Assembly: GCF_000507245.1 (NCBI RefSeq)
Contig: NC_023035.1
Span: forward strand, 310,001-374,000
DNA length: 64,000 nt
Source: Salinispira pacifica
GTDB lineage: Bacteria > Spirochaetota > Spirochaetia > DSM-27196 > Salinispiraceae
Direction of reading: 5' to 3'
The notes beneath the pieces were generated by a model, which saw only the letters and a list, made by a program, of their open reading frames with translations, made no database searches and was not told the DNA's origin. Within the stretch, counting starts at the first letter, position 1, and every line of letters starts with the position of its first letter. Both the position numbers and the translations under genes were made by a program. Of the stretch, positions 41,756-47,967 are shown piece after piece.

Positions 41756-42451
41756 ATGGCAATTGTAGAATTACAGGACGTTCACAAGGTGTATCCTCTG
41801 GGAAAAACCGAAGTCCATGCGGTTCAGGGAGTAAGCTCCCAAATTCAGAAAGGGGATTTCATTTCCATAGCCGGACCTTCGGGATCGGGAAAATCCACCA
41901 TTTTGAACATGCTGGGCTGCATAGATGTGCCCACCGACGGATCGGTGATTATCGACGACGTGGATACGAAGGACCTCAGTGATAAACAGATCACCGAACT
42001 TCGGCACAGATTCATCGGGTTCATTTTTCAGAGCTTCAATCTGATTCCGGTGCTCAACGTGTATGAAAATATTGAGTTCCCCCTGCTTCTGGGCAAAGAG
42101 AAAGTATCCCGGGGTGAAAAAAGCGACTGGATCAACTACCTCATCGAAGAGGTGGGGCTGGCAGATTGGCGGAATCACCGCCCCAACGAACTTTCCGGAG
42201 GCCAGAGACAGCGTGTAGCCATTGCCAGAGCCCTCGTGGCCAAACCCCAGGTTATTCTGGCTGACGAGCCCACTGCCAACCTGGACTCCAAAACCGGAGA
42301 ACAGATCATCGAACTGATGAAAAAAGTAAACCGGGATCAGGAAACCACATTTATCTTTTCCACCCACGACCCCACAATTGTTGGAATTGCCGACCACATT
42401 ATCCGACTTCAGGACGGCAAGATTGTTCATGAAGAACGCCGGGAGAAGTAA
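41756..42451 (+). CDS. ABC transporter ATP-binding protein (LolD/MacB type)
   Basis: 231 aa from ATG 41756, chosen because AGGAG lies 6 nt upstream. Walker A GPSGSGKSTILNMLG, Q-loop FIFQSFNLIP, signature LSGGQRQRVAIARAL, Walker B VILADEPTANLDS and the switch His in FSTHDPTIV. The family powers mechanotransmission by FtsX-type permeases, for example LolCDE lipoprotein release or MacB. The permease gene begins 2 bp after its stop. First gene of the cassette that ends with an outer-membrane barrel, which argues for export across the envelope and not import. Cargo unknown. Confidence 0.93.
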   Translation: MAIVELQDVHKVYPLGKTEVHAVQGVSSQIQKGDFISIAGPSGSGKSTILNMLGCIDVPTDGSVIIDDVDTKDLSDKQITELRHRFIGFIFQSFNLIPVLNVYENIEFPLLLGKEKVSRGEKSDWINYLIEEVGLADWRNHRPNELSGGQRQRVAIARALVAKPQVILADEPTANLDSKTGEQIIELMKKVNRDQETTFIFSTHDPTIVGIADHIIRLQDGKIVHEERREK

Positions 42452-42453
42452 AT

Positions 42454-43983
42454 ATGCCCATTTTAATGCGAATTGCTCTCCGGAATCTCCGGGAGCATAA
42501 GGCCAAGACTCTTATTGTGGGAGTGCTGATCGCTCTGGGTATTTTGATTCTCACCCTGGGGAATTCGGTGCTGGCCACCGCCGCGGTGGGAATTGAGCGT
42601 TCCTTTATAGACAGTTTCACCGGACACATTCTCGTCCGGGCGGAAGCGGAGAATCCGGTGACCATCGCTGGCGCACAGGGGTTCAGCTCCGATATTACAG
42701 GTCAAACCATTCCGAATTATGACCGGGTCTACGAATATGTTTCCGGGCTGGATCAGGTTACGGCGGCGAATCCCCAGATCACCTTTTTCGGGACCATAGA
42801 TTTCAGTACCGAAGAGAAATCCAAGGCGGCCATCGCCCCGATTTTCGGGGTGGAACCCGAGAGCTATCTGAATATGTTCCCCGACAGCCTGCAAATTCTT
42901 GAGGGCCGATTCCTGGAGCCCGGTGAAAGCGGTGTCGTGCTTCCTGCGGAGACGGTGAAGCAGATTCGGGAAGACCTGAACGAAGATATTCAGGTGGGTG
43001 ACGAAGTACGGATCCAGGGGTTTTCCGGTGGACCGGGCGGCGGAGGAGGCGGAATCCGCATCCGACGGCTCGAGCTCCTGGGAGTGTACGAATACCTGGT
43101 GGATGCAGGAAACACCCAACCCTATGCCTTTATTGATGCCTCCACGGTACGCTCCATGGCCGGCATGGTTGTGGGAAGCGCCGATGCGGTGAACATTGAT
43201 CAGGCGGACAGCAGCCTGCTGGACACCGGAGATGAGATGTTCGGCGGGGATGATATGTTCGCCGAAGAAGACCTGTTTGCCGATGACGCCCTGTTTTCAT
43301 CGGAGGTTGATACTGTTGAGGCCGATCTGAATGATGAGAATCTCTACGGAATTCTGGGAGATACCAGCGAACGGGCCATGGCCAGCCGTCCGGACGCCGG
43401 TGCCTGGACCTATATACTCCTTCGCCTTGAAGATGACAGCCAGACTACCACGACCCTTATGGAGCTGAACGGCCATTTTCAACAGGAGGGCTGGGCGGTG
43501 GAAGCCGTGGACTGGTCCGAAGCCTCGGGAGGGGTGGCCCAGTTCAACCAGGCCTTCCAGGTGTTTTTCTACGTTGTGGTAATCATCCTGTCGGTTGTCT
43601 CAGTGATCATCATTATGAATACGCTGGTTATTTCGGTGATCGAGCGCACCAAGGAGATCGGTACCATGCGGAGTCTGGGGGCCCAGAAAAAGGTTGTCAG
43701 AAGAATGTTCATAGCCGAAACCATGAGTATTTCTCTGGTGTTCGGAACCATCGGACTCTTGCTGGGACTTCTGATCATCTGGATTCTCAATATGGTTGGT
43801 ATTACCGCTCCAAACCCCTTCTTTGAGGTGCTGTTCGGCGGATCAACCTTGAGACCCATTCTGGACAGCGGGGCAATTCTCAGCTCGTATCTGATTATGC
43901 TGGGAATCGGACTCATATCAAGCTGGTATCCGGTACGGGTTGCGTTGAAGATTCAGCCCCTGGAAGCCATGCAGGCGGCATGA
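42454..43983 (+). CDS. FtsX/LolC-like ABC permease with an acidic-Phe insert
   Basis: 509 aa inner-membrane protein. TM1 at about residues 18-45, a large periplasmic domain (about 46-365), then three helices near the C-terminus (VVVIILSVVSVIIIMNTL; GTIGLLLGLLIIWIL; SSYLIMLGIGLISSW). The ERTKEIGTMRSLGA coupling segment is typical of this family. The periplasmic domain carries a Gly-rich loop (GGPGGGGGG, about 190) and at residues 260-282 a cluster of acidic-hydrophobic-Phe steps: EMFGG, DDMF, EEDLF and ADDALF. Similar motifs occur in the outer-membrane protein two genes further on. The insert is longer than in LolC/E. Confidence 0.9.
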   Translation: MPILMRIALRNLREHKAKTLIVGVLIALGILILTLGNSVLATAAVGIERSFIDSFTGHILVRAEAENPVTIAGAQGFSSDITGQTIPNYDRVYEYVSGLDQVTAANPQITFFGTIDFSTEEKSKAAIAPIFGVEPESYLNMFPDSLQILEGRFLEPGESGVVLPAETVKQIREDLNEDIQVGDEVRIQGFSGGPGGGGGGIRIRRLELLGVYEYLVDAGNTQPYAFIDASTVRSMAGMVVGSADAVNIDQADSSLLDTGDEMFGGDDMFAEEDLFADDALFSSEVDTVEADLNDENLYGILGDTSERAMASRPDAGAWTYILLRLEDDSQTTTTLMELNGHFQQEGWAVEAVDWSEASGGVAQFNQAFQVFFYVVVIILSVVSVIIIMNTLVISVIERTKEIGTMRSLGAQKKVVRRMFIAETMSISLVFGTIGLLLGLLIIWILNMVGITAPNPFFEVLFGGSTLRPILDSGAILSSYLIMLGIGLISSWYPVRVALKIQPLEAMQAA

Positions 43984-44025
43984 GTGCGGCGGCCGATCCG
44001 CCGCACACAGACCTTGAGGTGAAAA

Positions 44026-45336
44026 ATGAAATACTTGAATATCGCAATACGAAATCTCAGCAGGCAGAAAAAACGGAGCCTGCTGCTGGGGGGCGCCATA
44101 GCCTTCGGCATTCTGATGATCACTCTGGTGAATGCCTTTACCGCCGGAGCCACCCAGAATGTAAAAGAAAACTTTTCATACCTGCTGGCAGGACACATCT
44201 ACATCAGTGAAGAAACCAAGCGGGCGGACGGTGAAGTGCTCGATGAATTCATGGATGACGAGATTGTGCTCCAGGAGCTTGAAAATCTGGGCATCCAGGA
44301 GACGGACATGGTGAAGCGCTCATCCATGTTTGCCACCATGATTTTCAACGGCAGGCAGACAAGCCAGAGCGTACAAGGAGTTCGCTGGCAGCAGGAGCCC
44401 CAGCTGGTGGAACGGATGAAACTGGTTGAGGGGTCGGTGGACGAGGCCCGGGACGATCCCCGGGGGCTGATCCTCAGCGAACAGGCTGCAGAGAGTCTGC
44501 GGGTTCAGTTGGGCGAAGAGATCACCATCAGAACCAATACCATCACCGGGCAGCAGAACGTGGGAAGCTTTGTGGTTCGTGCAATCATGACCGACCCGGG
44601 AATTCTCGGCTCCCTCTCCAGCTACGCAAATCTGGATCGGGTGAACGAGATGATCAATCTTTCTCCCGGCAGCTACCAGACCCTGAATGTCACCCTGGAT
44701 TCCCTGGAACAGGTGGATCCGCTGACCAACCGGCTGTACCAGGCCCTTGAGCAGCGTGCCCAGGTGGCTCCCCGGGATGAACGGGGGGGATTAAACCTGG
44801 GCGATCTGTCTTTCACTTTTCAGGAAGAGGAAGAGGAGCCCTGGGATGGCTCCCGCTATGTAGTTCAGAATATCAATGACTTCACATCCCAGATCGACCA
44901 GCTCTCCCAGACGCTGAATCTGGTGGGGCTCTGGATTCTGGTTCTGCTGATTATCATCACCATGGTGGGTGTGACCAACACCTTCAGGATGATTATGTAT
45001 GAGCGAGTGAAGGAGATCGGCACCATGCGGGCCGTGGGTATGCAGCGGAAGGGTGTCCGGAGAATATTCCTCTGGGAGGCCGCCAGTCTGGGTACTCTGG
45101 GGTATGTAATCGGACTCATCCTGGCAATCATTGCGGGTTTCCTCATCGGGTTCATTCAGATTCCCCAGGATAACGCATTCAGCCTGTTTACCCTGAATGG
45201 AAGCGTGACATTCCCCTTTACCCTCGGTTCACTGCTTTTTAATTATATTTTCGTAACGGCCATGACGGTTCTTGCAGCCAGTTTTCCCGCCAACAAAGCG
45301 GCGAAGGCCCAGCCTGCGGATGCACTGCGGTCATGA
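44026..45336 (+). CDS. Second FtsX/LolC-like ABC permease
   Basis: 436 aa. Same layout as its neighbour: TM1 near residues 17-40, periplasmic domain, and three C-terminal helices (LNLVGLWILVLLIIITMVGV; GTLGYVIGLILAIIAGFLIG; LLFNYIFVTAMTVLAAS) with the coupling segment ERVKEIGTMRAVGM. It lacks the acidic-Phe cluster, so the two permeases are probably a heterodimer, as LolC and LolE are. A good GAGGTGAAAA ribosome site precedes ATG 44026. Two GC-rich hairpins separate it from the LolA-like gene. Confidence 0.9.
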   Translation: MKYLNIAIRNLSRQKKRSLLLGGAIAFGILMITLVNAFTAGATQNVKENFSYLLAGHIYISEETKRADGEVLDEFMDDEIVLQELENLGIQETDMVKRSSMFATMIFNGRQTSQSVQGVRWQQEPQLVERMKLVEGSVDEARDDPRGLILSEQAAESLRVQLGEEITIRTNTITGQQNVGSFVVRAIMTDPGILGSLSSYANLDRVNEMINLSPGSYQTLNVTLDSLEQVDPLTNRLYQALEQRAQVAPRDERGGLNLGDLSFTFQEEEEEPWDGSRYVVQNINDFTSQIDQLSQTLNLVGLWILVLLIIITMVGVTNTFRMIMYERVKEIGTMRAVGMQRKGVRRIFLWEAASLGTLGYVIGLILAIIAGFLIGFIQIPQDNAFSLFTLNGSVTFPFTLGSLLFNYIFVTAMTVLAASFPANKAAKAQPADALRS

Positions 45337-45340
45337 TTCA

Positions 45341-45395
45341 CCAGTGCCGGGCCCTGACCCGGCCTGGTATGAAGACGCCGGGCGATCAGCCCGGC
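45341..45395 (+). other. Two consecutive GC hairpins in the cassette mRNA
   Basis: Hairpin 1 (45341-45367) pairs CCAG-T-GCCGGG with CCCGGC-CTGG, with a 1-nt bulge and a 6-nt loop. Hairpin 2 (45377-45395) pairs GCCGGGC with GCCCGGC around GATCA. Both lie in the gap between the second permease and the LolA-like gene, with no T-run. They may protect or process the mRNA so that downstream genes are expressed at a different level. Confidence 0.55.
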
Positions 45396-45415
45396 AGGCA
45401 AATGAAGGAGATAGT

Positions 45416-46219
45416 ATGAAATATTCCAATACACAAAACACAGCCGGGAGAAGGACTCCCGCCAGGTACGGCGTTGTCGCCGTTTTAATGCTGACATTTC
45501 TGATTCTGCCGGCGTTTCAGCTGGCGGCCCAGGAACCGGACGTGGATGCCATTCTCCGTCAGATAGATGAGTTCGGCACCTTCAACGATGATGATTTTTC
45601 CGCTGAGTATACCATAGTCAGCGACAAGCCCGGGGAAGAGCGCAGCATCTTCAAATCCAGAATATTCCGCAGGGATTCGGAAGAGAAATTTCTGCTCATA
45701 AATCTGGAGCCGGTTCTGCGCCGGGGAGAAGGTTTTCTTCAGGTGGGCGATACCGGCTGGTCCTATGACCCCGAAAGCCGGGAGTTCGGCATTTTCAACC
45801 TCAGTGAAAGCTTTGAAGACAGTGAAGCCAGGAATTCCGATTTCGATGATAATGACTTCTCCGACGAGTATGAAGCGGTGAGTTATGAAACGGGAACTCT
45901 GGGAAAATACGATGTATACATCCTGGATCTGGAAGCAAAAACGGATACTGTGGCGTATCCGGCCATAAAAATCTGGGTACGGCAGGATAATTATCTGCTT
46001 CTCAAAGAAGAGGATTACAGCCTTTCCGGCCGGCTCATGCGCACCAGTTATTTTCCCAATTACGCCAGAGCCGGGGGCTATTTTATCCCCACCAAAATGC
46101 TTTTTGTGGATAACCTCAATCCCGGTGAGCGAAGCGAAGTGACCGTGCGGAATATCAGTTTCGATCCCATTCCCGACACGGTTTTCACCAAGGCATATCT
46201 TGAACAGGTGAACAGATAA
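45416..46219 (+). CDS. LolA-like outer-membrane lipoprotein-sorting protein
   Basis: 267 aa from ATG 45416 (AAGGAG 6 nt upstream; the frame is open further up to 45272, inside the previous gene). Signal peptide with hydrophobic VVAVLMLTFLILPAF, cleaved near LAAQEP. The mature protein shows the LolA-type half-barrel pattern of repeated amphipathic strands (FLLINLEPVLRRGEGFLQVG; TGWSYDPESREFGIFNL; KYDVYILDLEAK; IKIWVRQDNYLLLKEEDY). A likely periplasmic carrier for a lipidated or hydrophobic cargo. Its place between an FtsX-type ABC complex and a barrel fits a shuttle role. Its stop overlaps the next start. Confidence 0.82.
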   Translation: MKYSNTQNTAGRRTPARYGVVAVLMLTFLILPAFQLAAQEPDVDAILRQIDEFGTFNDDDFSAEYTIVSDKPGEERSIFKSRIFRRDSEEKFLLINLEPVLRRGEGFLQVGDTGWSYDPESREFGIFNLSESFEDSEARNSDFDDNDFSDEYEAVSYETGTLGKYDVYILDLEAKTDTVAYPAIKIWVRQDNYLLLKEEDYSLSGRLMRTSYFPNYARAGGYFIPTKMLFVDNLNPGERSEVTVRNISFDPIPDTVFTKAYLEQVNR

Positions 46220-47967
46220 TGAAAATTCCGACTATTCAACGCACTAAACAATACACTGATCAATACACAGACAGGCCGAAGGGACGGCGGAGGATCATCC
46301 CCGTCCTCCCGCTTCTTCTGATTATGTTCCTTCTTCCGGGTTTCGCTCTATCCGCCCAGGACGGGGGAGTTGACGAGGACGCATTGTTCGGCGGCGGAAC
46401 CGGAGAGTCAAATGCAGCTTCAAATGAAGGCGGGGCCGGATCTGACAGTGGTTCTGAAAGTGGATCCGGCGGTGATGTGAACGAGGATGATCTTTTCGGA
46501 GGCAGCGAGGATGATATGTTCGGCGGCTCCGAATCCGGCGGCGGTTCAGACTCCGGCTCGGGAGACGGAATGATCGAAGAGATCGGCGAACCCGGCGAGG
46601 ATGACGGCGACGACAGTCAGGCCTACACCGAATTTCTCACAAGCGAAGCGGTGCAGATCGGCGGCAGCCTCTCCTCCTCCCTTTCCAACTACTGGAGCTG
46701 GAGTGAGTACCCGGGAAGCGATGACGCCCCGGATGACCAGGAGGTGAACGACCAGCTGGGAATCAACCTCCGGGGAACGGTCTATCTCAACGCCCGTCCC
46801 TCAACGGATCTGCGGGTGTACATGAAGGTGAAAACCTCCTACCCGTTCAGCTCCGGTACCCAGGTGCTGGATTCCGCTACTTATATTCCGGATATTCCGG
46901 AAACCCCAACTGAGGATGAAGAAGGGGTCGCAACTACCTCCACAACGGTGGAGACTCCCAATCTGGATATTTTCGAATTCTATTCTGATGTGAACTGGAA
47001 CCAGCGGCTGTTTTTCCGGTTCGGGAAGCAGACGGTGAATTGGGGTGTGGGCTATTTCTGGAGTCCCGGGGACTTTATATCCCTGGTTCCCATCGATCCT
47101 GATGATCCGGAAGCGGAGCGGGAAGGCCCTGTGGCAATCAAGGCAAGTCTGCCCTTCGGCCTGAACATGATCGACGCGTATCTGATCGGCGATGAGACGG
47201 TTCGGGAATTTTCTGAGCTGGGTGTTGCTGGGAAGGCTTCGCTCTATCTGGCTCCGGTTGAAATTGAGCTGGGCGCAGGGTATCAGAAAGACCGGCCGTT
47301 CCGGGTTATGAGTACGGCCCGGCTCCCCCTTCGGGATATCACCTTCTTCGGTGAGGGGCGCCTTTCCTTCGGACGCCAGGGCAGTGTTGTGAGCGATCCC
47401 GGGGATCTGGACGTTGAGCCTGTGCCGGAGCTGCCGGTATTTGAAGAGGATGACGCAACCTATTTCAGCGGTACCGCCGGTTTTCTGTATTTGAAAAGCG
47501 ACCTCTTTGAGAGCAAAACAGATCTGAACCTCATTGCCCAGTATTTTTTCCAGGGCGAAGGATATGACGGAAGCGAGTATGTGAGGGCTCTTGCCTACGG
47601 ACTGAGCACCGGGGAGATCCAGAGCGACCAGCTGGGGAATACCGGCCGCCATTACACCGCCCTCTCTCTGGGGCTGAATCAGCTGTTTCTTGAGGATCTG
47701 AGCCTTTCAAGTTTCTGGCAGGCCAACTGGTCGGATATGAGCGGCCAGATCAACAGCTCCCTGACCTACCGCTTCTTTGACGGCCTCTCCCTGAGCGCCG
47801 GGGTCATCACCGCATACGGGGAAAGTCCTTCGGAATATGTGTCCCTGGGATCATTCACCCTCCCGCCTGAATTCGGAGGCGAAGAGGTCAGCGTGCCGTC
47901 GTTCAAGAATCCTTTCGGTGATCTGGCAATAAATGTTACAGTGAATCTCGGCGGCGGGCGCTTCTAG
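46219..47967 (+). CDS. Outer-membrane beta-barrel protein with acidic-Phe N-terminal region
   Basis: 582 aa. The signal peptide is long and basic (residues 1-47, hydrophobic core VLPLLLIMFLLPGFAL). Residues 48-135 are a Gly/Ser/Asp/Glu-rich disordered segment with DEDALFGG (52-59), NEDDLFGG (88-95) and EDDMFGG (97-103). From about 140 on, the sequence alternates polar and aromatic residues in strand pairs (LRVYMKVKTSYPF; LFFRFGKQTVNW; VTVNLGGGRF) and ends in Phe, which is typical of BAM-inserted barrels. It starts inside the stop of the LolA-like gene (TAATG). I infer the outer-membrane end of the export cassette. No assigned family. Confidence 0.75.
   Translation: MKIPTIQRTKQYTDQYTDRPKGRRRIIPVLPLLLIMFLLPGFALSAQDGGVDEDALFGGGTGESNAASNEGGAGSDSGSESGSGGDVNEDDLFGGSEDDMFGGSESGGGSDSGSGDGMIEEIGEPGEDDGDDSQAYTEFLTSEAVQIGGSLSSSLSNYWSWSEYPGSDDAPDDQEVNDQLGINLRGTVYLNARPSTDLRVYMKVKTSYPFSSGTQVLDSATYIPDIPETPTEDEEGVATTSTTVETPNLDIFEFYSDVNWNQRLFFRFGKQTVNWGVGYFWSPGDFISLVPIDPDDPEAEREGPVAIKASLPFGLNMIDAYLIGDETVREFSELGVAGKASLYLAPVEIELGAGYQKDRPFRVMSTARLPLRDITFFGEGRLSFGRQGSVVSDPGDLDVEPVPELPVFEEDDATYFSGTAGFLYLKSDLFESKTDLNLIAQYFFQGEGYDGSEYVRALAYGLSTGEIQSDQLGNTGRHYTALSLGLNQLFLEDLSLSSFWQANWSDMSGQINSSLTYRFFDGLSLSAGVITAYGESPSEYVSLGSFTLPPEFGGEEVSVPSFKNPFGDLAINVTVNLGGGRF

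Follow-up and report, generated by a model that had tools for sequence, protein, structure and literature searches.

Why should an inner-membrane ATP-binding cassette (ABC) permease and an outer-membrane beta-barrel of one gene cassette bear copies of the same short acidic-Phe motif? The question is raised by a stretch of 64,000 nucleotides from Salinispira pacifica (GCF_000507245.1, NC_023035.1, positions 310,001-374,000, forward strand), the whole of which we call the window. It carries five genes in the order LolD-type ATPase, permease C1, permease C2, LolA-like carrier and beta-barrel protein B, and the nearest named relatives of this cassette are Spirochaetales. An initial annotation of the window had pointed to the motif in C1 and B and proposed that it docks both proteins onto a common partner, possibly the carrier. 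Every motif string that it quoted is present in the window. It had placed B two genes after C1, but B is the third gene, because C2, a second FtsX-type permease missed in the count, sits between C1 and the LolA-like gene. Our analysis makes a Lol-like export machine the likely identity of the cassette, with this acidic-Leu-Phe tag as a two-station docking tag for the LolA-like carrier. The tag is common to C1 and B, conserved, confined to both, tied to one LolA clade and kept in unlinked barrels.

In C1 the tag lies in an insert flanked on either side by a matched half of the permease, where LolF has an equivalent of about 30 residues (216-248), and only the tag is conserved in sequence within the insert. 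In 20,000 shuffles each, the C1 insert never reached its four tag copies and the B N-terminus never reached three. The four copies in the C1 of the window are a local expansion, the usual number being one or two. Within the window, C1 and B alone exceed a score of 9 with the motif matrix. The background was measured on 400 kb of the 3.78-Mb single-contig genome and on the homologous loci described below; among the 844 open reading frames (ORFs) of the 400-kb sample none reaches a matrix score of 14. A generic DNA pattern for [DE][DE]xFG is not enriched genome-wide (36 matches against 53 for the reversed control); the specific matrix is needed.

Homologous cassettes show that the tag is conserved across the phylum. 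Our locus set combines cassettes from the same taxonomic order with 80 named loci that the LolA alignment retrieved, and the comparison spans about 90 homologous loci, mostly from Spirochaetota; many come from metagenome-assembled genomes (MAGs), and gene calling was crude. The order C1-C2-LolA-B is kept in almost all loci with enough contig, the C1 tag sits in a variable periplasmic insert and the B tag directly behind the signal peptide. The pattern [DE][DESAN][LMIF]F is found in 77 of 88 non-redundant B N-termini (8.5 +/- 2.7 in shuffles, 10 for the reversed motif) and in 59 of 73 C1 inserts (5.5 +/- 2.3 and 0). Outside the insert, its frequency in C1 is below chance (4 against 11); the barrel part of B contains it about as often as expected by chance (23 against 20). 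Near forms, for example NSLFGG and SDLFGG, account for most sequences missed by the pattern. We rejected chance or composition as the source of the tag on the basis of the shuffles and the reversed motif. F275 of C1 and F101 of B are invariant columns in otherwise variable regions of the alignments (22 and 24 sequences, respectively), and deep relatives retain matched forms, for example EEDIFAE and EEDIYSE in L204. The expectation that orthologous cassettes carry the motif in both proteins was borne out: with a strict pattern this is the case in 52 of 65 non-redundant loci, the remaining 13 having it in B only (nine), in C1 only (one) or in neither (three), and the one-sided loci mostly contain near forms of the tag.

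Some further features of these loci were observed. In many C1 inserts a second conserved piece, LxxILGDTSxR, stands 3' of the tag (43297-43407 in the window, and homologues), and no counterpart of it was noticed in B. In addition to the canonical tag, the B N-termini of L080, L107, L108, L116 and L119 contain repeated acidic-Phe units of the DPFADPF type, which may be a variant form of this signal. In L101 (1-250, on a contig shared with L070) the C1 insert is a GADLGA/GADPGA repeat at the contig start, without a tag; the barrel retains two tags, and the repeat is possibly an exception or an assembly artefact. Tagged cassettes are also found in MAGs labelled Trueperaceae and Bacillota/Clostridia (L143, L171, L141, L144, L148, L157 and L168), L171 being a complete chromosome. 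These occurrences could reflect horizontal transfer, diderm lineages or mislabelled bins.

The motifs of the two proteins are the same. Logos built separately for C1 and B agree on D-x-D-[S/D/A]-[L/M]-F-[G/D/E]-x-[D/E], and a matrix derived from C1 alone scores 65 of the 88 B N-termini above the 99% level of their own shuffles. The agreement can be seen in single loci, with DSLFGGDMVDTG in C1 and DALFSGDMVDTA in B of L156, DALFGEDVLVTS and DSLFGDEVLVQP in L145, and VDDLFASP and VDDLFAVP in a diverged second cassette of the window's genome (L098). A strict-score scan of the 3,726 ORFs of the loci gave 150 matches, of which 86 are in B, 57 in C1 and 7 in DnaJ, and no match in C2 or LolA; among the remaining ORF families of the loci none exceeds 14. 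The DnaJ matches lie in the Gly/Phe region (DFEDLFGGFGD; L071, L072 and L084), which scores like the tag, likely by coincidence. The window's genome also encodes an exported FecR-like protein (L010, 409-1536; genome positions 233245-234372) whose C-terminal end, SEEDFFGSDDDFF, is close to the tag, and its nearest relative (L248) ends in EDDFFDDPESFF. We rejected it as a third tag carrier, since the acidic-FF C-terminus occurs only in the nearest relatives and more distant homologues are without it.

The initial annotation also expected the C1 and B motifs to co-vary. The raw likeness of the two motifs within a locus is indeed higher than in random pairings (4.59 against 3.54, reached in 0 of 2000 permutations), but relatedness explains most of it: the within-locus likeness compares with that between close relatives as 14.8 with 15.2, and with LolA identity controlled for, the partial Mantel r comes to 0.11 (19 of 2000 permutations). 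We therefore do not use locus-specific co-variation as proof of a C1-B pairing; the two tags evolve together mainly because the cassettes are inherited together. Unlinked barrels are more telling. The cassettes of L105 and L111 have no adjoining barrel, and in each case a homologous barrel is found elsewhere in the genome among unrelated genes; both of these barrels are tagged, with DFDTLFEEE and EDLF in L244 and EEDLFSDTEMVEE in L245. In the genome of L171 (Trueperaceae) a tagged barrel adjoins a second LolA-like gene (L243), and in that of L104 the barrel search gave only one weak, untagged match.

A survey of the phylum links the tag to one LolA clade. The LolA homologues of Spirochaetota split into a high-scoring clade A, present in about 36 of 120 well-completed genomes, and a low-scoring clade B. 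With a uniform pattern the motif is found in 17 of 21 barrels adjoining clade A against 3 of 21 adjoining clade B (P 3e-5), and in 19 of 20 against 3 of 14 permeases (P 1e-5). The rest of the clade A barrels have, by eye, near forms such as ESQLF, EKDLF and EAEMF. The LolA-like protein of the window matches PF17131 with 149.1 bits (gathering cut-off 30), and the fold of the homologue in L139 resembles NE2245 (3buu), DUF1329 (4z48), P. gingivalis LolA3 (9tp6) and 3bk5 with Z scores of 22-24. Tagged cassettes supplied 101 LolAs for comparison and untagged cassettes 21; in the numbering of the L139 homologue, D25, R50, R51, D52, G71 and F89 are 97-100% conserved among the former and absent among the latter. 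The Arg-Arg-Asp triplet, R85-R86-D87 in the window, is found in 97-99% of the former and 0 of 21 of the latter. From the strand order, D25 should adjoin R50-D52, and the Arg pair would be a natural partner for an acidic tag.

Two AlphaFold2 models bear on the partner of the tag. In L139 the LolA and barrel genes share one frame, and translation through the LolA stop gives the natural LolA plus the N-terminal stretch of B; this read-through fusion was modelled with 73 sequences. Most LolA residues have a predicted local distance difference test (pLDDT) score above 90, the values fall below 50 in the read-through linker and the signal peptide and to 30-50 over most of the tail, while the tag block DIDALFGDEV reaches 78 and the next block 65. 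A helix (270-276) covers the tag and is followed by a beta-bridge (282-283). Another helix predicted in this tail (304-316) reaches only about 45-51, so the value of the tag is not explained by helix formation alone. The second model is of a natural C1+C2+LolA fusion in L158 (1197 residues, 35 sequences), whose C1+C2 part matches YbbAP and LolCDE structures. Its C1 tag LDALF (262-266) lies in a short helix, in a block with a pLDDT of 71 (80 before, 58 after), and a strand (274-276) is found 8-10 residues past the tag, the same local shape as around the L139 tag. We regard the L158 model as no more than suggestive.

Several observations weigh against docking to the carrier. The contact between tag and LolA is read from order in a model and not seen in coordinates, and the L139 model rests on an artificial read-through fusion. 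The L158 model gives the tag moderate confidence and has a predicted template modelling score (pTM) of 0.58; either C1 or C2 might be the partner there. Ancestry alone, without tag binding, could account for the LolA signature. A few cassettes are without a recognisable tag in one protein, as in the C1 of L101/L070, and, as described above, motif likeness within loci does not rise above that between close relatives. The L158 model would also fit a different reading, in which the tag binds the periplasmic domains of C1 and C2 instead of LolA, the C1 copy being a plug or gate that is displaced by the barrel tail, leading to direct docking of pump and barrel. C2 accompanies the tag in nearly every locus, which would agree with this. 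We nevertheless consider such an arrangement unlikely, as the barrel tag is ordered with LolA alone in a model from which C1 and C2 are absent, and the Arg-Arg-Asp signature of LolA tracks the presence of the tag.

Another possibility is that the tag recruits a general factor from outside the cassette, such as the barrel-assembly machinery or a chaperone. The barrel tail adjoins the signal peptide, a possible place for assembly signals, and one unrelated exported protein of the same genome, the FecR-like protein, ends in SEEDFFGSDDDFF. Most barrels of untagged PF17131 cassettes in the same phylum do without the tag, however, and there is no set of unrelated outer-membrane proteins with it, since only DnaJ scores above 14 among the other ORF families of the loci; this explanation appears improbable to us. 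Very little speaks for an acidic motif that C1 and B use independently of each other to bind metal (Ca2+) or sense a ligand: the DxDxxxGxD of the logo resembles metal-coordinating acidic loops in general, but the hydrophobic Leu and Phe are the most conserved residues and no calcium-loop family is matched in C1 or B. Least credible is that the resemblance has no specific function and simply arises in disordered periplasmic linkers that are acidic and Gly/Ser-rich. Both segments are acidic and length-variable, with low-complexity expansion in the window, but this reading is strongly disfavoured by the shuffled and reversed controls, the invariant Phe columns, the common consensus and the tags kept in unlinked barrels. 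A tag by which both proteins dock to a common partner, as first proposed, stands as the best explanation, with the LolA-like carrier as the best-supported candidate partner on the grounds of the AlphaFold2 model of L139 and the Arg-Arg-Asp signature.

From these observations we infer carrier binding, mutual exclusion, direction and cargo as follows. The ATPase and the C1/C2 pair would extract a hydrophobic cargo, be it a lipoprotein, a lipid or some other apolar compound, from the inner membrane and load it onto the LolA-like protein, which would carry it to the beta-barrel, its putative receiver at the outer membrane. DxDxLFGxD would be a short linear docking motif, displayed on the flexible periplasmic insert of C1 and on the disordered N-terminal tail of B, and its probable binding partner is the soluble carrier, whose gene lies between those for pump and barrel. 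The C1 tag may keep the carrier near the pump and the B tag may then catch it. Both would bind one site on the carrier, probably its Arg-Arg-Asp edge; if so, binding to the pump and to the barrel exclude each other and a hand-over follows. The initial annotation had considered a route for lipoproteins or hydrophobic cargo, and lipoprotein export is one option among several.

The cassette resembles the LolCDE-LolA-LolB system of E. coli in its type VII ABC permease pair, LolD-type ATPase and LolA-fold soluble carrier, and the C1 profile matches LolF, LolE, LolC and MacB structures. In E. coli the Hook of LolC (residues 167-179) recruits LolA (PMC10865981), and in the present system, where AlphaFold2 orders the tag next to LolA, a periplasmic element of the permease may recruit the carrier. 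Whereas the Hook is poorly conserved in sequence, the tag is a linear motif with a conserved sequence. It lies in a long insert of C1 that is not at the position of the Hook, because the insert falls where LolF has residues 216-248. The tag is furthermore found again at the outer membrane, where the partner is a beta-barrel instead of the LolB lipoprotein. No LolB-like gene is found among the five cassette genes, the rest of the genome not having been searched for LolB. Since the subunits score below the NCBIfam equivalog cut-offs (229 of 308 bits for TIGR02211; 71 and 84 of 362 bits for TIGR02212) and the outer-membrane partner is a barrel, we do not regard the cassette as a canonical Lol member. 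It differs from MacAB-TolC in having two separate permeases and a separate ATPase, and there is no MacA-type adaptor among its genes. Untagged PF17131 cassettes with LolAs of the second clade (for example L096 in the same genome and L201 in Vibrio) have the ATPase, FtsX-type permease or permeases and carrier in common with it. Their final partner is a barrel or a hypothetical exported protein, and they usually have no tag in permease or barrel and a LolA without the Arg-Arg-Asp signature.

The nearest published spirochaete cluster is BBJ23-29 of Borrelia, which comprises a MacB/LolE-like ABC transporter with a single, homodimeric permease, a LolA-like protein, an Omp85 barrel and two TPR proteins (PMC13078400, 2026). 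ABC transporter, LolA-like protein and barrel are common to both; the sections of the description that were considered mention no shared tag, and the window's cassette has two permeases and a putative remote DUF1302-like barrel. No Pfam match to Omp85 was found at E up to 1 in B or its 23 homologues. We rejected the Borrelia cluster as a member of the system, as the LolA of the window found no plasmid-borne Borrelia relative. AmeABCD of Castellaniella, which exports apolar monoterpenes, combines an RND (resistance-nodulation-division) pump, a DUF1329 LolA-fold protein and a DUF1302 barrel (PMC6394551). The likeness lies in a LolA-superfamily periplasmic protein and a DUF1302-type barrel for hydrophobic cargo, so that such a carrier and barrel can serve small apolar compounds; the motor in the inner membrane is of the RND type and not an ABC transporter, and the passage considered mentions no tag. 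DUF1302 (PF06980) is matched below threshold in 10 of 24 B homologues (best E 0.0022) and not in the barrel of the window, and a sequence search gave no PDB relative of the B barrel, so that B may at best be a remote DUF1302 relative.

Table 1. Features of the tagged cassette, in window positions.
Feature	Position	Strand	Remarks
LolD/MacB-type ABC ATPase	41756..42451	+	PF00005 E 6.8e-33; best NCBIfam match TIGR02211 LolD, 229 bits
Permease C1, FtsX/LolC-E type, 509 aa, with tag-bearing insert	42454..43983	+	PF02687 70.7 bits
Variable acidic insert, C1 periplasmic domain, residues 232-318	43147..43407	+	
C1 tag cluster DEMFGGDDMFAEEDLFADDALF, residues 260-281	43231..43296	+	
Permease C2 (FtsX + MacB_PCD), without tag	44026..45336	+	
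LolA-like soluble periplasmic carrier, 267 aa	45416..46219	+	PF17131
LolA Arg85-Arg86-Asp87, candidate tag-binding residues	45668..45676	+	Signature of LolAs from tagged cassettes
Outer-membrane beta-barrel B, 582 aa, putatively remote DUF1302-like	46219..47967	+	Signal peptide, then barrel-like sequence
B tag copy 1, DEDALF, residues 52-57 (DEDALFGG 52-59)	46372..46389	+	
B tag copy 2, NEDDLF, residues 88-93 (NEDDLFGG 88-95)	46480..46497	+	
B tag copy 3, EDDMF, residues 97-101 (EDDMFGG 97-103)	46507..46521	+	
14-residue tag peptides of the window			DEDALFGGGTGESN in B, AEEDLFADDALFSS in C1

The open-licence literature that we searched describes no shared tag, LolA docking motif or cassette of this kind, the nearest being the Borrelia cluster and general work on Lol, and tag-labelled shuttling across the periplasm is an organisation not described there. 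If LolA clade A is taken as its mark, the cassette is widespread, with about 36 of 120 Spirochaetota genomes. We are inclined to see in it a phylum-wide system, in which one portable linear tag on an ABC permease and a barrel is the pick-up and drop-off label of a LolA-fold carrier. The common tag on pump and barrel suggests a mode of carrier hand-over across the periplasm, and two peptides together with one small soluble protein would suffice to test it directly. A tag in a variable tail is also a sequence handle by which orphan barrels can be paired with their pumps, as for the two unlinked barrels described here.

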